From positions 1 through 64,000 of the forward strand of contig JAFUAO010000061.1 in the NCBI GenBank assembly GCA_017460665.1: a stretch of 64,000 bases of DNA. Direction: 5' to 3'. The DNA is from Ruminococcus sp. (GTDB lineage: Bacteria; Bacillota; Clostridia; Oscillospirales; Ruminococcaceae). The notes under the pieces are model-generated. The model searched no databases. It saw nothing but the letters and a program-made list of their open reading frames with translations, and was not told where the DNA came from. A program made the translations under genes and the position numbers. This document shows positions 14,629 to 23,534 of this stretch, in pieces (the first letter of the stretch is position 1; each line of letters opens with the position of its first letter).

Positions 14629-15996
14629 CTATAGAGTTTTGACATATTCCCTCATGGTCTGCTTTCCGCCGCTCATGACGAAGGCGTAATAAACAAGGAT
14701 CCGTGAGGCGTCGCTGGCGTCGATGACGCCGTCGAAGTTCACATCGCCAAGGAGGAACTGCTCCGAGTCGAAGGTGGGCTCCTTGCCGGTCTGGGTCCGT
14801 GCATACTCCATAAGGACCTCAGAAGCATCAGAGGCATCGGTCTTATGGTCACGGTCCACATCGCCAAGATCGTAAAGGCTCTCAGGTGTAGTTGTCGTAA
14901 CGGTCGTTACTTCGCTAGTTGATGTTGTCTGCGTAGAAGCTGCGGAGGTCGTCGATGTAGTATCCTCTCCGCTTGTCGTAGCTTCTGTGGTCGATGTCAG
15001 CGCTCCGGTAGCCGTTGTCGTTGTGCTTGAATTGGTAGATGCAGAGGTCGTGGCAGCAGTCGAAGCGCTTTCCTTCGAGGTCGTAGAGAGGACCGTAGTT
15101 TCGGTCGCCGGCTTAGTTGAGATGGTAGTCGTTCTTGAAGTTGTGGCGGCAGTTGCTGTGACAGTAGTGGTCGTTGTCTCAACTCCAGTCGACGTAGATG
15201 TAGTAGTTGCTTTAGCAGTAGTCGTAGCTATTGCCTTTGTTGTAGTCGCAGCGGCAGAAATCGTTGTTTTGATCGTTGTTGAGGTGGTCGTAGTTTTTGC
15301 CTTTGTTGTAGTTGGAGCAGCAGAAGTTGTTGTTTTGATCGTTGTTGAAGTGGCCGTGGGAGTTGCTGTTGTTGTAGTTGTGGCGGCAGAAGTTGTTGTT
15401 TTGATCAAGGTTGAGGTGGTCATGGGAGTTGCTGTTGTTGTAGTTGTGGAGGTAGTAGTTGTAGTTGTTGTGGCCGTAGAAGTGGTCACAGTCGTTGTTT
15501 CTTCTTTTTTTACAAGGTCTACAGTTCCATTGCTGACCGATACGGCCAGCTTCACAGCATCCTTGCTCACTACCCCGGGACTGCAAAGCTGTACGGTAGC
15601 GCTTCCCTCAGCCGCTGTGTCTGCTATCTCAAACACAAGTGTGAAGAACACGCCTGTGCCAGTGAAGTTTTCCTTTCCGGAATAATCGCCGAAGTTCAGA
15701 CGATAGCTGCCGCTGTTCTCTATCTCAGCAGCATTATTGTTCGGTGCGAGCTCCTCCGAATAATCGACTTCTATCAGCTTGAGCGCACTGCTGTCCCATG
15801 AGACATCGACTGCTCCGACGGCGTATCCGCTGTTCACATCGGCACGGATAGCCAGCTCGACTGTATCGCCTGCATTCAGCTCTGCGGAGAGCGTATCCGC
15901 GGAGAGCACAAAGTCAGCAATGGCGTAAGCGCTCGCCGGGATCATCATGAAAATCATGAGCACCGCAGTCAGAAGGAGGGTAAATGATCGTTTCAT
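14629..15996 (-). CDS. Adaptor scaffoldin: one cohesin, Thr-rich linker, one dockerin
   Basis: A 455-residue secreted cellulosome component. A signal peptide (MKRSFTLLLTAVLMIFMM...ASAYA) is followed by a cohesin domain at about residues 28-168: FVLSADTLSAELNAGDTVEL, AVDVSWDSSALKLIEV, the RLNFGDYSG core and the closing VSNGTVDLV strand. A threonine linker of about 210 residues, partly in 22-residue repeats, leads to a C-terminal dockerin with two near-identical calcium loops (DVDRDHKTDASDAS and DVNFDGVIDASDAS). A single cohesin plus a dockerin is the layout of adaptor scaffoldins that re-route enzyme binding. AGGAGG precedes ATG 15996, and the gene sits 11 bp after the frameshifted dockerin gene. 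Confidence 0.88.
   Translation of the reverse strand: MKRSFTLLLTAVLMIFMMIPASAYAIADFVLSADTLSAELNAGDTVELAIRADVNSGYAVGAVDVSWDSSALKLIEVDYSEELAPNNNAAEIENSGSYRLNFGDYSGKENFTGTGVFFTLVFEIADTAAEGSATVQLCSPGVVSKDAVKLAVSVSNGTVDLVKKEETTTVTTSTATTTTTTTSTTTTTATPMTTSTLIKTTTSAATTTTTATPTATSTTIKTTTSAAPTTTKAKTTTTSTTIKTTISAAATTTKAIATTTAKATTTSTSTGVETTTTTVTATAATTSRTTTISTKPATETTVLSTTSKESASTAATTSASTNSSTTTTATGALTSTTEATTSGEDTTSTTSAASTQTTSTSEVTTVTTTTPESLYDLGDVDRDHKTDASDASEVLMEYARTQTGKEPTFDSEQFLLGDVNFDGVIDASDASRILVYYAFVMSGGKQTMREYVKTL
15251..15451 (-). repeat. 66-bp tandem repeat encoding Thr linker units
   Basis: The GCAGAA anchor recurs at 15254, 15320 and 15386, an exact 66-bp period. Each unit encodes 22 residues of the form TTTxxATxTxTSTTIKTTTSAA. 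Such repeats can vary in copy number and change the linker length between cohesin and dockerin. Confidence 0.8.
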
Positions 15997-16007
15997 ATGC
16001 TCCTCCC

Positions 16008-17066
16008 TTATACTGTCTTGGTCACGATGTACGCATCATAGCCTTCCCAGCCGGCAATATACCTTGCAAGTATCATCGCATCTGCATTATCGACGGTATC
16101 GTCGCCGTTGAGGTCAGCAGACTTGAGATCGATCACGATATTCACCCATGCAGCCGCATAGCGTGAAAGCAGCATTGCGTCGATGCTGTCCACAGTGCCG
16201 TTGCTGTTGACATCGCCCATCAGGACCTCCTCAGCCATATTGACGGTGATAGTCTGATTCTCGAAGGAAGTTCCGCTGAACGAGTCCACATACGTCCTCT
16301 TGTTGCCGTCATCGGTGAAGGTCGTATCCACTGTTTCCACAACATTATGATCGCTGTCCTTAGAGCAGACCATCTCAGCGGTGACCTTTGAATAGTCGTC
16401 GCTCCATGTGTAGGTGGGAACAAGATACGCATGGCCTGTTGCGGGATAGATCGTCGGCCAGTAGTCCTGGATCGACGCCTGAGCGCCAAGGGGGTATCGT
16501 GGTGACTCCTCCGCACCTTGTGCAGACCCTGCAAGTCCTGTCGTAGCCGTCAGTTTCGCAGGTTGGGTCGGAAGGCCCGACATAGACCCGATCATGGCCT
16601 AAAGCAGGCAGAACTGTCTCCTCCAGTGTACACTCTTCCTCAGCGGCCTCGTCCTTGAAGATCTTGCCGCAGGTGCAGGTATAATGCTCGATCTGACCGG
16701 CGTGAGTGCAGTCCGGCTCGATTCCCTCGACCTTTGGGAGCCTGTCCGCATGGACGTGAGCGCCGCCGATAATGACGCTCTCAGCGACCGTTACGCCGTC
16801 GCTCTCAAAGATACTTTCAGCGATAACAGCCTCCTCGGGGGAATCCACCTCATAGTCCTCGATGTAGATACCGCCCTCGAAGCCCTTGATGCCATTGGGA
16901 GCATTTATCTCGGAGCGGACGATGTTGAGGGTACAGCCTGTTTTATTGGTGGTACCGGAGATCGTAGCATTGACGGTGGCGTCAATTACGTTCACGGTGG
17001 AATCGAGAGTTACTGCGATCAATGCGCCGTTTTCTGCGGTAAGAGTTCCGGGGCCGGTTATGGGTC
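16008..17066 (-). pseudogene. Frameshifted surface protein ending in a dockerin
   Basis: Three reading frames join into one protein-like sequence. Frame one ends in HFASYDP at the TAA at 17058-17060, and adding one base in the GGG at 17062-17064 continues into ITGPGTLTAENGALIAVTLDS. A second break at the five-G run 16490-16494 would be cured by removing one base, giving GGVTTI then PLGAQASIQDYWPTIY. Content: beta-helix-like repeats, Cys-rich GH-D motifs (CTHAGQIEHYTCTCG, CETDGYDRTC), a YTWSDDYSKVTAEMVC module, and a C-terminal dockerin with loops DVNSNGTVDSIDAM and DLNGDDTVDNADAM. Both breaks are in G runs, so assembly error or slippage is possible. Its upstream part is fused to a receiver domain (17058-17900). 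Confidence 0.75.
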
Positions 17067-17900
17067 GTAGGAGGCGAAATGCTCGCCGGTTTCACGCTTT
17101 TCAGCAGCGTCCGAGCTTTTCGTGAAGAAGGTCTCCAGCTTGTCGATGTTCTCATTAGTGAGCAAATTAAGGTTAATGAGGACGCCGTATGACCGCACGC
17201 CGGTTATTTGCAGCTCGCCAGTGACGGGCTCACCGTCCTTATCGACGACAGCGCCGTCCTTGACCTCTGCGTCCTCGGGAGATGAGATAAAGCTGCCGTT
17301 AATGGTGATACCGCCGTCGAAGCCCTCAATAGCGGAGAGGTCGGAGGTGCCTTTGGCGGTGAGGCCGCAGCCGTTGAGAATGAGTTTTTCGCCTGTGCCG
17401 CTTCCTCTGATATTGCTGTTGACATCAAAGGTCTTGCTGTTGATAGTAAGGGTCGCCCCATTCCCCACGGTCACGCCGCTCCATTCTCTTGTGATAGAGA
17501 CATTTGTGTCGCAGTTTTTCGTGCCGATTACTGTATCCGCATTTATTTCGAGATCGCCGACACTGAGCCCGGTCTTGCCCTCAGCGGCAGCGATGATCAG
17601 CCTGTCGCAGCTTTGGTTGAAGATCTCCGGCTCATAGTTTGAGAGGAGCAGTGTATTCGTGCTGGGGTCATAGATCGGCACAGAGGAAGCTCTCCTTATC
17701 CTCCGGCAGACCTCCTCGCCGGGAATGTCCGGCAGCATAAGGTCGAGAACGATAAGGTCAGGCTGGTCTGCTGCGAATATCTCAAGGGCCTGCTGACCGG
17801 TCTCGGCAGTTAGGACCCAGATCCCCTTGTGTGTCAGATAGTCCAATACCGCCTCACGGATCTTGGCATCGTCGTCAACTGCGAGCATGATTATGTCCAT
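17058..17900 (-). CDS. Truncated response-regulator receiver fused in frame to surface-protein sequence
   Basis: Residues 1-76 are the start of an OmpR-type receiver: acidic VDDDAKI, phospho-acceptor Asp in DLIVLDLMLPD, then RIRRASSVPI. At that point, where a receiver continues with its T/A loop, the frame switches to YDPSTNTLLLSNYEPEIF and then to beta-strand-rich repeats (VTVGNGATLTINSKTFDVNSNI, GFDGGITINGS) typical of exported proteins. There is no signal peptide and no DNA-binding domain. It looks like a deletion joining two genes; the product is probably non-functional. A start at ATG 17888 would also fit. The frame stops at 17058 through the first frameshift described for the next entry downstream. 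Confidence 0.7.
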   Translation of the reverse strand: MDIIMLAVDDDAKIREAVLDYLTHKGIWVLTAETGQQALEIFAADQPDLIVLDLMLPDIPGEEVCRRIRRASSVPIYDPSTNTLLLSNYEPEIFNQSCDRLIIAAAEGKTGLSVGDLEINADTVIGTKNCDTNVSITREWSGVTVGNGATLTINSKTFDVNSNIRGSGTGEKLILNGCGLTAKGTSDLSAIEGFDGGITINGSFISSPEDAEVKDGAVVDKDGEPVTGELQITGVRSYGVLINLNLLTNENIDKLETFFTKSSDAAEKRETGEHFASYDP

Positions 17901-17912
17901 TATCTCAGTATA

Positions 17913-17921
17913 ATTATACCA
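17913..17921 (-). promoter_or_regulatory. Extended -10 element upstream of receiver chimera
   Basis: Minus strand reads TGGTATAAT, an extended -10 (TG plus TATAAT). No good -35 is visible. The leader to ATG 17900 would be only a few bases, or about 18 to ATG 17888. Confidence 0.45.
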
Positions 17922-17943: not shown

Positions 17944-18411
17944 TCATCTCCAATTTGCGAAAATGTTTTTTGAGCTCACCAGCAGGTCGTAGGGTATAGT
18001 AACTGTATCCTCAGTGTCGGAGCGCTCTGCGGCGCTTATGGCCCAGGGACTGCAACCGCCGTTGGAATTGGCTCCCACCTGATCGGCAGTGAAATGGAAG
18101 CCGCAGTTCTGGCAGACAAGGTCTGTGCCCTCCACCTTGTACCTTCCGTTCCCGGAGGTATAGCATGACTGGCAGGTGTTGAAGGCCGTGCGGATATTGC
18201 CGGAGCTGTCCTTCACCGCAAAGACCTCCATGTCGGTGCCCTCCACGGTCACAGGGTAGAATTTGGCAGTCTCCGTGATCTCGCTGACAGGGATCACAAG
18301 GTCGGCCCTTTCGCCGGAGACCTCTGCTGCCTGGTCAGCTCCCGAACTTCCGCAGCCGTAAAGCCCAAACGATACCGCCGCTGCTATGACGGCACACATC
18401 ATCTTTTTCAT
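17944..18411 (-). CDS. DUF2318-type lipoprotein, likely metal binding
   Basis: A 155-residue lipoprotein: the signal peptide ends in LYGC (Cys about residue 20). The mature part has the DUF2318 layout with CQSC near residue 81, CQNCGFHF near 101 and GGCSPWAI near 118. These cysteines suggest a bound metal or iron-sulfur site outside the membrane. It is the last gene of the copper operon, 4 bp after copA, so a role in copper handling at the cell surface is inferred. Confidence 0.75.
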   Translation of the reverse strand: MKKMMCAVIAAAVSFGLYGCGSSGADQAAEVSGERADLVIPVSEITETAKFYPVTVEGTDMEVFAVKDSSGNIRTAFNTCQSCYTSGNGRYKVEGTDLVCQNCGFHFTADQVGANSNGGCSPWAISAAERSDTEDTVTIPYDLLVSSKNIFANWR

Positions 18412-18415
18412 ATGC

Positions 18416-20926
18416 TCAACCTCCTACTACCGTGTAGCCCTTATCAGCGATCGCCTGCTTCATCTCATCAAGGTGTGCCAATTCGCCCGACAGCGTGAGG
18501 ACTGCCGTTCCCTTTTCATGGCTGGCTGTTGCCTCCTGCACCTCGTCAAAGTTTTCGAGACACTTCTTGACGGTCGCCTCGCAGTGCGGACACATCATGC
18601 CATCTATTTTCAGTGTGTATGTATTGCCGCTTAAATTCATATTTATCAGCTCCTTCACTGTATCCTTTCGTGGTCTGTCGTTTTTCGTATCGAATATTTT
18701 TGCAAGGTTCAGCCGAAGTGCATTTGTCACCACCGAAACGCTTGACAAACTCATTGCCGCCGCACCGAACATCGGATCCAGCTCCCAGCCGAAAAGCCTG
18801 ATATACGCACCTGCTGCAAGAGGTATGCCGATGACATTATAAATGAACGCCCAAAAGAGATTTTGCCTGATATTCCGCATAGTTTTACGGCTGAGTCTGA
18901 GTGCTGCGGCAGCGTCCGTCAGACGGCTTTTCATCAGAACTACATCTGCGGCATCTATGGCAATGTCCGTTCCTGCGCCGATCGCAATTCCGATATCCGC
19001 CCTTGTCAGCGCAGGAGCGTCATTGATGCCGTCGCCGATCATAGCCACCTTGCCCTGCTTTTGCAGTCGGCGGACCGCGCTTTCCTTTTCATTCGGAAGA
19101 ACCCCTGCAATGACCATATCCACACCGACTTGTCTGCCTATTGCATTTGCCGTGCGCTCGTTGTCCCCGGTAAGCATGACGGTCTTCAGCCCCATATTTT
19201 TGAACTGAGTGATCGCTTCGGGAGAATCCTCCTTGATAGTGTCTGCTACAGCTATTATTCCGAGAAGTCTGTTCTCGTCAGCAAAGAACAAAGGCGTTTT
19301 TCCCTCGTCCGCAAGTTTTTGAGCTGTTTCTTTCATTTCATTGGAGATCGTTACCTTGCTTCCGATAAACTCCGCATTTCCTCCGAAATAAGCGCTTTTC
19401 CCAAGCATTGCAGTCAGTCCGCTGCCAGAAAGCGCCTTAAAATCTGTTGCCTCAGACAGCTTTATATCATTCTCCTCAGCGTATGTAACTATAGCTTTTG
19501 CAAGGGGATGCTCGCTTTTCTGTTCGAGCGCATACGCCGTTTCGATAAGCATTTTTTCGTCCGAATCAACGGGGATAACGTTCGTGACAGACGGCTCGCC
19601 CTTTGTGATCGTTCCTGTCTTATCAAGGACAACTATCTGCGCCTTTCCCGTTTCTTCGAGTGAGACTGCGGTCTTGAAAAGAATGCCGTTCTTTGCACCC
19701 ACGCCGCTGCCCACCATGATCGAAACAGGTGTTGCAAGCCCCAATGCGCAGGGACAGCTTATCACAAGAACAGAAATTGCACGGGCCAGAGCATAGCCCA
19801 CAGTCTGCCCGACAGCAAGCCAGATCACGAGCGTTACAAGTGCAATGCCGATGACCGCAGGCACGAACACGCCCGACACTCTGTCTGCAAGCTTCGCTAT
19901 TGGCGCTTTTGTTGCGGCGGCATCGCTGACCTTTTTGATGATCTGAGAAAGCGTTGTGTCCTCGCCCACCTTGACTGCTCTGCACCGCAGAGAACCCGAC
20001 TGATTTACCGTACCTGCCGAAACGCTGTCACCTTTCAGCTTGTCTGCGGGTATGCTCTCGCCGGTCAGTGCCGATTCATCGACTGCACTGGTGCCGTCAA
20101 GAACAGTTCCGTCCACCGGGATATGCTCGCCGGGGCGTACCACAAAAACATCACCGATCTGTACCTGTTCCGCAGGGATAGTCTGCTCCTTGCCGTTGCG
20201 TTCGACCACCGCCGTTTTCGGGGAAAGCTCCATAAGTCCTTTGAGCGCATTGGTGGTTTTTCCCTTAGAATAGGCTTCAAGCGTTTTTCCAACTGTTATA
20301 AGAGTGAGGATCATCGCCGCAGCTTCAAAATAGAAGTTCATCATGTCATCCATAACGGCTTCTTCATTTCCTGCGACGACTGCCCCTGTCATGTGGAACA
20401 GCACATATACGCTCCACAAAAATGATATGCCCGACCCCATCGCCACAAGTGTGTCCATATTCGGGCTTTTGTGGATAACAGCCTTGCATCCGCTAATAAA
20501 AAATTTCTGGTTTATCACCATGATAATTGCCGTCAACAGAAGCTGCACCAGACCCATGGCCACATGATTTCCGTCTAAGAATGAAGGGAGTTTCCAGTCC
20601 CAGAGCATATGCCCCATCGAGAGATACAGCAGCGGCAGAAGGACGATTACAGATGCGACAAGCCGTTTTATCATAAGAGGAGTTTCCCTGTCGGCAAGCT
20701 CGTCTGCACGCTCTGTTGATCTTTCTTGACCTTTTACTGATGCTCCATAGCCTGCATTTTCAACCGCTTTGATGATCGCAGACGGACTTGCTGGACCCTC
20801 AACGCCCATGGAATTTGTCAGCAGGCTGACCGAAACAGAGGAAACTCCCTCCACCTCAGATACAGCCTTTTCAACTCGTGCGCTGCAAGCTGCACAGCTC
20901 ATGCCTGTTACATTATACTGTTCCAA
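18416..20926 (-). CDS. copA: Copper-translocating P1B-type ATPase with N- and C-terminal HMA domains
   Basis: CopA pumps Cu(I) out of the cytoplasm. The 836 residues contain an N-terminal metal-binding HMA domain ([11 protein letters not shown]), the actuator TGES loop, the CPC membrane motif ([12 protein letters not shown]), the phosphorylation motif [11 protein letters not shown], the SEHPLA nucleotide-binding motif and [10 protein letters not shown]. Unusually, a second HMA domain is at the extreme C-terminus ([16 protein letters not shown], about residues 768-783), like a fused CopZ chaperone. It is translated with the CC-rich lipoprotein gene 11 bp upstream. Confidence 0.95.
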
Positions 20927-20937
20927 AACGCCCCTCC

Positions 20938-21231
20938 TTACTCGCCGCAGCAGCTGCCGATCTCAGAAATATTGGGAGAACAGCAGCCCGGAACTCTGTC
21001 CTCGTCCACTGCTGTGTCCAAGCTTGTCTGAGGCGTACAGCACTCTTCATTCGCAGCTCCGTCAGCGACAGAGATCTGCTGCGCAGTTGTTGTTTCATAA
21101 GCAGTCTCATTCTGAGAAGCAGTAGTGACTTCTGCGCCGACCGGTTCAAGAACTGCCTGTTCAATATCTGTTCCGCAGGAACTGAGCATCAGGCATATTA
21201 CAGCCGAGATAAAAATGATAGATCTTTTCAT
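20938..21231 (-). CDS. Small CC-rich lipoprotein in copper operon
   Basis: A 97-residue predicted lipoprotein not recognised as a named family. The signal peptide ends in LMLSSC (Cys about residue 19). A Thr/Gln/Glu-rich spacer leads to three evenly placed double cysteines: EECCTPQ, PGCCSPN and GSCCGE at the C-terminus. This pattern suggests soft-metal binding outside the membrane. It lies between the SafE-cupredoxin gene (13 bp) and copA (11 bp), which supports a copper-binding or transfer role by context only. Confidence 0.72.
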
Positions 21232-21244
21232 AGTGACCGTCTCC

Positions 21245-22561
21245 TTACTTTGTAACGTGAATACTTCCGTATATCATTCCCATCCAGCAGGAATAGCTTA
21301 TTTCTCCTGCATCTTCGGGAGTGAATTCAATGATATTATTCCCCTCGTGAAATTCATATTCCAGACCGATATCTTTACATACGATCATGTAATTACAGCC
21401 ATTGATGCTGCTTTTTTCAGCGTGGATATTCCAGCGTACAGGAACACCTGCCTTCACAGTTATCTCGGGATACTTTCCCGGTGTCAGCTCGCTTTCAACG
21501 ATCTGAACACCGCCGATATCCACCGCTGTGTCCTTTGCTGAGCCTGCTGATGCTAGCGCTGTCGGCAGCAAACCGCTCAATACGCCGCCCTGCGTCAGCA
21601 GAGCCAGACCCATAACTGCGACAACTACTGCTCCAACGCTTTGGACGGCATGAGCGAACTTCTTTCCAAGAGCCGCCACAAGAGAGCCAAGCCCCAGCAT
21701 CAGCGGCAAAGTTCCGAGACTGAACAGCAGCATTGACAGACCACCCTTTATGGGACTTCCGCTTGCAAGTGCGATCAGCCACATTGCCTGTAACGGTCCA
21801 CAGGGCATGATACCGTTCAGCAGTCCGACTATGAATGGTGCCTTTTCCTTTGCCGAAGCTCTGCCGAATATCCTGACAATTTTTTTCGGCAACGGTACGG
21901 AAAATCTTTGCAGCCATGAAAATGCACCGACAAGCCGAAGTCCCATGATAAGCAGCATAACTCCTACAATGATCTTGATGATACCCTGCAATGTAAGAGG
22001 GAGCGATAATCCGGAGCCACCGACAAAATATCCGATTGTTCCGAGTACCGCACCTATCGCCGTGTATGAAACTACTCTACCAAAATTATATAAAAACGGT
22101 CTGACAATGCTGTGCTTCCCCTTTGGATCGGGTATGCTCTGAGAAAGGCTGATACCGCCGCACATGGCAATACAATGCACCGAGGTCACTGCGCCTATGA
22201 GAAACAGCGCACCGTAGCCCATTCCTGACCGTGCAAGCTGTGAGGGGGCGAGCTTGTTTAGCAGCCCTGTATATTGCAGCAGCATATAGAGTACCATGAT
22301 CGCTGCAAGTGATAATAGACCTTTGATCGGCAAGCCGCTGTCCGCCAAGCCTGCGACCTTGTATCCCTCATTTTCAATTACTTTTACGATATTGTCATAG
22401 GGGACGGAATTGTCGCTTTCAAAGTCTGCTTTGGCTTTTTTGTAGCTTACGTTGATGTTATGAACGCCTTTCATATTCTGCAAGGCTTTGGCTATCTTAT
22501 GTTCACACTGAACGCAGTACATTCCAGATATTTTCAAGTGATATGCTGTTCTTTCTGCCAT
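21245..22561 (-). CDS. HMA - SafE/UreH-type membrane - cupredoxin fusion protein
   Basis: A 438-residue three-part protein. An N-terminal HMA domain carries GMYCVQCEHKI. About eight membrane helices of the sulfite-exporter/urease-accessory (UreH_2, DsbD-like) type follow, with VTSVHCIAMCGGI and the GIMPCGPLQAMW loop. The C-terminus is a cupredoxin-like domain ending in ISYSCWMGMIYGSIHV with Cys and Met ligands. I choose ATG 22561, behind GAGGTGAGG, not the upstream ATG at 22585. First gene of the operon; likely exports or inserts copper, or passes reducing power across the membrane. Confidence 0.85.
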   Translation of the reverse strand: MAERTAYHLKISGMYCVQCEHKIAKALQNMKGVHNINVSYKKAKADFESDNSVPYDNIVKVIENEGYKVAGLADSGLPIKGLLSLAAIMVLYMLLQYTGLLNKLAPSQLARSGMGYGALFLIGAVTSVHCIAMCGGISLSQSIPDPKGKHSIVRPFLYNFGRVVSYTAIGAVLGTIGYFVGGSGLSLPLTLQGIIKIIVGVMLLIMGLRLVGAFSWLQRFSVPLPKKIVRIFGRASAKEKAPFIVGLLNGIMPCGPLQAMWLIALASGSPIKGGLSMLLFSLGTLPLMLGLGSLVAALGKKFAHAVQSVGAVVVAVMGLALLTQGGVLSGLLPTALASAGSAKDTAVDIGGVQIVESELTPGKYPEITVKAGVPVRWNIHAEKSSINGCNYMIVCKDIGLEYEFHEGNNIIEFTPEDAGEISYSCWMGMIYGSIHVTK

Positions 22562-22686
22562 AGACCTCACCTCACGATATATCATAACAGGTAATTATGT
22601 GTTTTTTATGTGCATATAGGCTCTGGAAAAACTTTTATTGAAACACTTGATCTTTATACAGAAACAAACAGCTTCTGAAAAAAACA

Positions 22687-22814: not shown

Positions 22815-22893
22815 TATAATAAGATCCCCTATTTGATGGCGGCACTAATTGAAAGGCATACAGATACTTAATTGGTATTTGTATGCCTTTTTT
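22815..22893 (+). terminator. Hairpin terminator on plus strand, overlapping the ABC remnant end
   Basis: AAAGGCATAC...GATAC (22852-22867) pairs with GTAT...TGTATGCCTTT (22875-22890), ending in a six-T run. A TATAAT box lies just upstream at 22815-22820, but no convincing -35 is present, so a tiny plus-strand RNA of about 65 nt is possible yet weakly supported. The minus-strand ABC frame reads straight through this hairpin. Confidence 0.6.
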
Positions 22894-23534
22894 ACATATT
22901 CATAGTGAAAGCAGAATAGACAGCCATGTTTTCTTTTTCGCACGGACGGTATCTCCTCCGGCTCTGTCAGGTCGAAAATGCGGATATGTCCGCCTTCTGT
23001 TTCCTCCACACGGGAAAAATTACCGGTAAGGAGCAGTTTAGTTCTGCTTATCGGCTCGTCCAGTATCAGCAGAGCAGGGTCGCCCAGCAGGGCCATTGCG
23101 ATGCCGACTCTCTGCTTCATGCCGAGGGAGCATTTCTTGAATTTGAGCTTTGCGTTGTCCTCCATGCGGACGATCTTCAATACACGCCGAATTTCCTCAT
23201 CTCTGTTTTCAAGACCTAAGTTGATCGCCTGCATCATCAGATTCTGATAAATACTTGAATTTGGAAAGCAGCCTGCGTTCTCGATAAGCGCACCGACACG
23301 AACTCTAACACCCGGATTATTGTATTGCTTTCCAAACAGACGTATTTTTCCGCTGTCGGGCACAAGATGTCCGCAGATGAGCTTTTCGGTGGTGGACTTG
23401 CCCGAACCGTTTTCGCCGATAAAGCCGTATATCGCACCGACGTGGACGGTCATATCCAGTCCGTCCAGCGCATACAGTCCCCGGAAGGATTTGGTCAGCC
23501 CCCTTATCTCAATTGCGTTGATGTTATCGCTCAT
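22845..23534 (-). pseudogene. Truncated ABC transporter ATPase (BcrA/lantibiotic-immunity type)
   Basis: The first 170 residues are a normal ABC ATPase: Walker A GENGSGKST, Q-loop region, signature CSLGMKQRVGIAMALLGD and Walker B LLILDEPIS. Directly after Walker B the expected GLDP D-loop and H-loop are missing, replaced by RTKLLLTGNFSRVEETEGG and a tail that ends inside a terminator hairpin. No permease gene is present. The protein could bind but probably not hydrolyse ATP properly. GGGAGTG precedes ATG 23534. I call it a deletion remnant. Confidence 0.7.

Follow-up and report, generated by a model that had tools for sequence, protein, structure and literature searches.

Does a cluster of four metal-protein genes in an anaerobic, Ruminococcus-like bacterium pass Cu(I) through the membrane to holders on the cell surface, and what switches the cluster on? 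The genes lie on contig JAFUAO010000061.1 of Ruminococcus sp. (assembly GCA_017460665.1), within a 64,000-nucleotide stretch referred to here as the window. They encode a membrane protein composed of HMA, DsbD_2 and CupA-type cupredoxin domains (the transporter), a lipoprotein with three CC pairs (the CC lipoprotein), a CopA-type ATPase and an FtrD-like lipoprotein of the DUF2318 family. A previous sequence-only reading had placed four coupled genes at 17944..22561 and suggested a relay of copper from CopA to sinks at the surface. Our coordinates agree: the operon runs on the minus strand from 22561 to 17944 with intergenic gaps of 13, 11 and 4 nucleotides (nt), and the four-gene unit is a real copper operon. 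On balance we favour the view that it is a Cu(I) detoxification operon which is controlled by a two-component system and relays the metal outward.

Domains and conserved ligands of the membrane protein

Pfam matches of the transporter were HMA (PF00403) and DsbD_2 (PF13386, E = 4.7e-47). The protein had been described as an HMA–SafE–cupredoxin fusion; the TauE/SafE identity of its membrane part was dropped, as Pfam at E ≤ 0.1 gives HMA and DsbD_2 only, while the two other parts stood. The cupredoxin domain has no Pfam match and was seen instead by a sequence search of solved structures. In this search the last 107 residues match pneumococcal CupA (2mry/4f2e, E = 1.8e-8), and the C-terminal domain also matches the N-terminal cupredoxin of pneumococcal CopA (4f2f, E = 3.8e-4). 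According to the accessible text of PMC5646241 the copper sites of CupA are C74/C111 and C74/M113/M115, and in our alignment each of these four Cu(I)-binding residues, two Cys and two Met, has a counterpart in the transporter. Candidate ligands are H137, C138, M141, C142 and C262 in the membrane and C397, C433, M435 and M437 in the outer domain, numbered in a 446-amino-acid frame. Counted from the likely start at 22561 the transporter has 438 amino acids; this start appears better than the in-frame upstream ATG at 22585, because the latter overlaps the proposed −10 hexamer.

Homologues were obtained by searching 84,980 species genomes with the transporter; 262 places were confirmed, and the locus counts refer to the best 80 among them. 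Among these unfiltered homologues the GMxCxxC-type motif of HMA is found in 78/80, HCxxMC in 79/80, PCG in 80/80 and C[WG]MxM in 79/80. The exceptions are L001, with CRMGM instead of C[WG]MxM, and L063 and L072, which start late (L numbers denote loci and G numbers genomes; L164 is the window, G065 the genome of L003, G367 that of L148 and G523 that of L149). C397 is invariant in a 52-row alignment, whose rows were picked from the 80 by length and presence of ligand motifs; motif counts are therefore quoted from all 80. Some long forms (L010, L080) show a weak second cupredoxin-like match below the Pfam cut-off, and the L051 transporter carries two CxMxM motifs.

The topology was drawn as seven helices with the N-terminus inside and the C-terminus outside, the helix limits being placed by hand. 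Mean K+R values among the homologues were 3.98, 7.31 and 2.58 for loops meant to be inside and 1.0, 0.15 and 0.19 for those meant to be outside. As the loop charge alternates, the HMA domain is predicted to lie inside and the cupredoxin domain outside. The conserved Cys of the membrane core sit in an early (C138, C142) and a later (C262) helix. The claim that metal sites occur in the cytoplasm, in the membrane and outside holds for sites of the Cu(I) type, whereas the relay from CopA to a surface sink is not supported as stated. Since the conserved ligands of the transporter span the predicted path from cytoplasm to outside, the transporter itself appears a better candidate than CopA for feeding the outer domain.

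CopA and the FtrD-like lipoprotein

In the ATPase, PF00403 was found twice within a P-type ATPase, in line with the previous description of a CopA with HMA domains at both ends. The protein carries CPC, YNx4P, MxxSS and two GMxCxxC motifs. CPC, YNx4P and MxxSS plus an N-terminal HMA domain make up what we take to be the signature of Cu+ P1B-1 ATPases, and the window CopA shows it completely. All three of these motifs are present in 39/41 full-length CopA proteins encoded near the homologues, and 23/41 have a C-terminal HMA domain.

The assignment of the fourth gene to the DUF2318 lipoproteins was confirmed by PF10080 (E = 1.9e-21, 76.6 bits against a cut-off of 26.3). Its five Cys (CxxC, CxxC, C) are invariant in 39 aligned proteins, namely the window protein and 38 others; of the 45 separate FtrD-like proteins detected, seven were left out.

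Gene neighbourhood and distribution

On the same strand and within 6.5 kb of the transporter gene, the 80 loci contain an FtrD-like gene in 44 cases (plus one fused), CopA in 41, a response regulator in 25, a kinase in 22 and CsoR in 7. FtrD, CopA, a kinase or CsoR is held somewhere by 70/80 loci. The transporter, FtrD-like and CopA genes recur together in Clostridia and Treponema, and judging from the record titles many loci belong to bacteria of the rumen or gut. The expectation that the four-gene set would recur in other genomes is therefore borne out for three genes; the full set is rare, a separate CC lipoprotein following the transporter gene in 2/80 loci (L003, a close homologue, and L005).

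The transporter is sporadic, with 8/297 family genomes (E ≤ 1e-30) and one of five sampled genus genomes carrying it. When the label Spirochaetota is mapped on a quick tree of 81 proteins, supported branches force a minimum of three changes, which would suit, without proving, a passage of the transporter between phyla.

The CC lipoprotein and CC tails

The CC lipoprotein has 97 amino acids and the three CC pairs previously reported for it, the last pair lying at the C-terminus (SCCGE), and no Pfam or NCBIfam match above cut-off. Judged from comparison with its L003 relative it is a real gene, because the ratio of non-synonymous to synonymous substitution rates (dN/dS) is 0.24 and all six mature Cys are retained; by the same measure it is under purifying selection. 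The other three operon genes gave values of 0.05 to 0.13 against L003. Shuffling of the mature part yielded three CC pairs in 50 of 200,000 trials. The L005 protein occupies the same place, and its sequence has diverged so far that phmmer gives no match at 1e-3. Among 297 family genomes, matches better than 1e-4 were confined to the own genome and G065. Weak matches (E ≤ 1) in 121/297 look like chance matches to signal peptides and acidic linkers and were rejected; neighbourhoods were inspected for L086, L087 and L096 only.

A CC pair also occurs in the transporter tail beyond the cupredoxin domain in 15/80 homologues, compared with a mean of 0.84 and a maximum of 4 for shuffled tails (2000 shuffles). 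With C[CH] pairs followed by at most eight residues, the number is 23/80. On the quick tree the CC tail requires at least nine changes. A CC tail is absent from the three transporters whose loci encode a lipoprotein partner, those of the window, L003 and L005. We infer that the CC lipoprotein may be a detachable Cys-pair module, or tail, on the outer face. That it acts as a copper sink is plausible, and this reading gains from the fact that homologues carry CC tails at the same place.

Two scans for small open reading frames with CC near the end gave mostly frames that were out of frame or unrelated by eye and were dropped; L003, L005, L039, L049, L062 and L080 were left. L039 (2203-2388) encodes a single-helix protein of 61 amino acids ending in PPCCQ, located between the transporter and FtrD genes, whose CC end is probably outside. 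Small single-helix proteins are encoded directly downstream of the transporter gene in L049, L062 and L080, from Treponema and other Spirochaetia; in these, CC follows a positively charged stretch and is probably inside.

The promoter repeat

The operon is preceded by CACATAAAAAACACATAA (CACATAA-N4-CACATAA, a direct repeat with an 11-bp period), 8 nt and TATGAT, in this order. At ≤ 1 mismatch the own genome has only two repeat sites; the second was not retained as a separate member of the regulon, since it is what remains of this promoter in front of a decayed second operon copy. Across the 80 loci (1.71 Mb, both strands) 15 sites were found at this stringency. Each of the 15 is situated no more than 230 nt upstream of a transporter, FtrD or CopA gene or at most 20 nt past its start; in 14 cases a TAnnnT −10 element follows at exactly +8. 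When two mismatches were allowed, the repeat was present in 21 loci, 19 of these with TAnnnT at +8, and the window (L164) shows the same spacing. The repeat also stands in front of distantly related homologues. At this setting the repeat occurs in 17/27 loci with regulator genes versus 4/53 without (p = 2.6e-7), and in 15/27 versus 4/53 if a shorter upstream stretch is considered (p = 4.7e-6). The repeat period and the −10 spacing presumably resemble those of PhoB-type activator sites, and we propose that the repeat is the binding site of a PhoB/OmpR-type response regulator.

Three-mismatch look-alikes upstream of the transporter in several other genomes were not counted. Candidates for further regulon members were sought in 15 genomes (11 with the transporter); only the G065 transporter site, among the 16 sites listed at ≤ 1 mismatch, has a −10 element at +8, and the others were rejected.

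The regulator pair and the lack of CsoR matches

Genes for a response regulator and a sensor kinase follow FtrD in L003 and L004. Matches of the L003 regulator to OmpR/PhoB models extend along the entire protein but stay below the equivalog cut-offs. The kinase sensor region was found in 24/80 loci. In 23 aligned sensors (L046, which is partial and lacks HDM, was left out) W97, D98, H102, D103 and M111 do not vary, M104 and C107 are almost invariant, and the sensor motif is mostly H-D-M-x2-C-x3-M. Kinases of further genomes have the HDM form in L136 and L159-L162 and HN-x3-C in L156.

Transporter and sensor also go together across genomes. Among 325 genomes of the order, 14 contain the transporter (E ≤ 1e-40), 11 the sensor (E ≤ 1e-20) and seven both (p = 1.5e-8); with the own genome excluded, both are found in 6/324 (p = 2.2e-7). 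The two genes lie on different contigs in five of the seven genomes. An intact regulator–kinase pair is present in the own genome at the end of contig C45 (L105), and its kinase is 71% identical to the L003 kinase. Control by CsoR was rejected for the own genome, as a PF02583 search gave no matches at E ≤ 0.001 in an assembly that is 92.9% complete; the same family was found in 6/14 control genomes.

Other members of the sensor family have the form HK-x2-EC with no transporter nearby (L154, L155, L157, L158). Proteins of 627-628 amino acids encoded next to three of them (L154, L155, L157) resemble P-type metal ATPases by eye, and these kinases perhaps have another metal specificity. Some CsoR copies carry a Cys-rich N-terminal extension (L013:7639-8055, L065:2980-3366, L018:3111-3578, L019:3111-3578, L020:3227-3580), which contains CC and, except in L013, CPxC-SGKH; CsoR of L006 and L036 has the CPxC-SGKH motif only.

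A model for outward transfer of Cu(I)

In the model that we favour, the HMA domain would take up Cu(I) in the cytoplasm and H137, C138, M141, C142 and C262 would hand it outward through the membrane. The outer CupA-type domain (C397, C433, M435, M437) would receive it and give it to the CC lipoprotein, which would hold Cu(I) at the cell surface. CopA would export Cu(I) with ATP in parallel, and the five-Cys FtrD-like lipoprotein may be a redox or copper partner outside. Expression would be switched on by the response regulator acting on the CACATAA direct repeat, with the kinase sensing copper outside through H-D-M-x2-C-x3-M. The sequences themselves show the order of the genes, their homologies, the conserved ligands, the constant distance between repeat and −10 element, and the link of both repeat and operon to the regulator pair. 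The identity of the metal, the direction of flow, the order of hand-over and the binding of the regulator to the repeat are what we infer here. More tentatively, and with somewhat less confidence than in the model itself, we suggest an undescribed copper response of gut anaerobes, in which an HDM kinase that senses outside copper, a dedicated CACATAA box and a transmembrane Cu(I) relay (HMA, HCxxMC and PCG in the membrane, outer CupA domain) onto modular Cys-pair sinks would replace CsoR in some Clostridia; as part of this suggestion, the sinks would in evolution have been attached as C-terminal tails or released as separate lipoproteins.

Several observations weigh against the model. DsbD_2 proteins are kin of the DsbD/CcdA thiol-electron relays, and electrons, not copper, may cross the membrane. 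For pneumococcal CupA the model is delivery to CopA at the inner side of the membrane, and an outer CupA domain means a change of place. The homologues were collected with patterns covering some ligand motifs, so the high motif frequency is partly a result of selection, and the tree was a quick one. The CC lipoprotein is missing in the close relatives L001 and L004 and is thus not essential. With respect to control, HDM is not universal in transporter-linked kinases: L046, L148 and L149 have HN-x3-C (the latter two adjoining both transporter and CopA), L057 has HDT and L060 lacks the Cys. Of the seven genomes with both transporter and sensor, two (G367 and G523) have a sensor of the HN form, and another three belong to one genus. 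CsoR adjoins the operon in the seven loci mentioned above, so that control is not uniform. After correction for phylogeny the link between repeat and regulator keeps its direction but is not significant (eight pairs; on average 3.6 same and 0.0 opposite, median p 0.125). At ≤ 2 mismatches the repeat is missing from 12/27 regulator-bearing loci, or from 10/27 with the longer upstream stretch, and only G065, of 11 transporter genomes searched whole, has it before the transporter at ≤ 1 mismatch.

Alternative explanations

The kinship of the membrane domain leads to the alternative that survives best, although we consider it unlikely: the DsbD_2 protein would move reducing equivalents outward and CopA alone would export copper. 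The electrons would serve to reduce Cu(II) bound by the outer CupA domain, and also to maintain the thiols of the FtrD-like CxxC motifs and of the CC lipoprotein in the reduced state. Such a function would fit the PF13386 match, the additional DsbD_TM match of L080 and the conserved Cys in an early and a later core helix, and the accessible texts report that CupA reduces Cu(II) in vitro (PMC5646241) and suggest a redox role for DUF2318 CxxC motifs (PMC10783030). It fits less well that the cytoplasmic domain is HMA instead of thioredoxin, that none of the four operon proteins has a thioredoxin-family match in Pfam, and that the membrane Cys are flanked by H137 and M141, residues more in keeping with Cu(I) than with a simple dithiol relay.

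The operon might also be an ordinary one, in which CopA works under a copper regulator and the other products are interchangeable accessory chaperones with no ordered relay. Its members do come and go: combinations vary widely, 10/80 loci, several of them short, hold none of FtrD, CopA, kinase and CsoR, and part of the set had already been predicted as CsoR targets (accessible text of PMC4938975). Yet ligands are conserved along the whole transporter, a single protein in L024 unites HMA and DsbD_2 with DUF2318 and a cupredoxin that gives a weak match, and the promoter element is found in more than one family; these points speak for a coordinated unit, and we regard this explanation as improbable. 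It is highly improbable that the system imports a scarce metal or loads an outer metalloprotein, as DUF2318 in the Campylobacter FetA and P19 iron system might suggest (PMC6083913, PMC10783030), because the genes lie beside CopA, whose full-length forms nearly all have the Cu+ motifs, CsoR stands in some of the loci, and no iron permease or P19 partner was seen in a scan of eight proteins of the window, which included four from the flanks.

Genomic context of the operon

The features of the operon and of its immediate surroundings are given in Table 1. The regulator relic in the window corresponds to the beginning of a further copy of the regulator gene and continues in frame into an unrelated open reading frame (17058-17900). 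This arrangement, with the intact copy on contig C45, reflects either a rearrangement or an assembly chimera. On contig C28 (13949-14220, L165) the same promoter precedes a transporter start joined to an FtrD-like end, a deletion relic. On the strength of these two relics the operon was probably once present twice in this genome; an assembly error at the junctions is also possible.

Table 1. Features of the copper operon and its surroundings in the window
Feature	Position	Strand	Evidence or remark
HMA–DsbD_2–CupA membrane protein (transporter)	21245..22561	-	Pfam, ligand motifs in 80 homologues, alignment, topology
CupA-type cupredoxin domain, C-terminal in transporter, predicted extracellular	21260..21523	-	Match to CupA structures
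CC lipoprotein, 97 amino acids, three CC pairs	20938..21231	-	Syntenic CC lipoproteins in L003, L005
CopA-type P1B-1 ATPase, HMA at both ends, TTG start	18416..20926	-	Pfam and motifs
FtrD-like/DUF2318 lipoprotein	17944..18411	-	PF10080
Direct repeat CACATAAAAAACACATAA (two 7-mers, 11-bp period)	22595..22612	-	Proposed PhoB/OmpR-type response-regulator site
−10 hexamer TATGAT	22581..22586	-	Starts exactly 8 nt after the repeat
Response-regulator relic (5′ end of gene)	17673..17918	-	93% identity over 246 bp to intact C45 copy

Two further observations concern the flanks. The stretch 14629-17022 contains a gene for a threonine-rich dockerin-like protein and, next to it, overlapping frames; by eye these resemble one broken dockerin-type gene. 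The frame of an ABC ATPase (22845-23534), flanked by the operon promoter and the gene of an EmrB-type transporter, has an odd C-terminal end and is possibly truncated.

Implications and comparison with known systems

The operon is built of parts of known kinds. Three of its genes are widespread and partly predicted before, and the CC lipoprotein is lineage-specific and fits a recurring CC module; the promoter element and the regulator pair are additions to the sequence-only reading. Copper is a common livestock feed additive, and the repeat could help to recognise copper regulons in metagenomes from the gut. A CupA domain that is predicted to lie outside and is fused to HMA–DsbD_2 in several phyla extends the range of a protein known from few streptococci, and it raises the question whether copper itself can be carried by membrane proteins of the DsbD type. 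Together with its short and nearly unique operator, the regulator pair offers a testable alternative to CsoR, which the accessible text of PMC4938975 presumes to be the sole copper regulator in Clostridiales.

Novelty of the set, which had been thought not to be described, holds in part. Hobbs et al. (2016) predicted COG2836 (HMA, DsbD_2, DUF2318) and DUF2318 proteins in the CsoR meta-regulon of gut Firmicutes, where they stand beside the main members, CsoR and CopA (PMC4938975). The main text of that paper does not contain the word cupredoxin. Literature searches of open-access papers found none that deals with the fused protein, with the sensor or with the repeat, and no experimental description of the arrangement itself. 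CsoR governs the genes in that meta-regulon, whereas here no CsoR was found, the repeat is distinct and the two-component pair is the likely regulator.

CusRS/CopRS share with the pair described here a membrane sensor kinase and an OmpR-family regulator beside copper genes. The L003 pair differs in its sensor motif and remains below the CusS/CopS and CusR/CopR cut-offs (TIGR01386, 210.9 against 292.55 bits; TIGR01387, 170.6 against 279.2 bits). The CusR box is a palindrome, whereas the operon has a direct repeat.

With DsbD/CcdA (PF13386, PF02683) the transporter has in common a membrane domain family with conserved core Cys; it differs in that HMA replaces thioredoxin, a cupredoxin domain is predicted outside and HCxxMC contains extra His and Met. 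The FtrD-like protein shares the five-Cys pattern of PF10080 with DUF2318 proteins linked to FetA/P19, and presumably also with FtrD of Bordetella and Brucella, which we take to be a PF10080 relative. DUF2318 genes are almost always found with iron-uptake clusters according to the accessible text of PMC6083913; here they accompany the transporter, often together with CopA, and their product is small, either a lipoprotein or a protein with one helix, and linked to copper genes.

The closest counterpart of the outer domain is found in the cop operon of S. pneumoniae (CopY-CupA-CopA), where a membrane-anchored CupA cupredoxin with the binuclear Cu(I) ligand set is likewise encoded beside CopA (PMC5646241, PMC7558416, accessible texts). 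CupA works there towards CopA from inside, whereas here the domain is fused to HMA–DsbD_2 and predicted to lie outside. It was described from few streptococci in the accessible parts of PMC5646241 and of a 2020 review, and is found here in Clostridia, Treponema and other bacteria.

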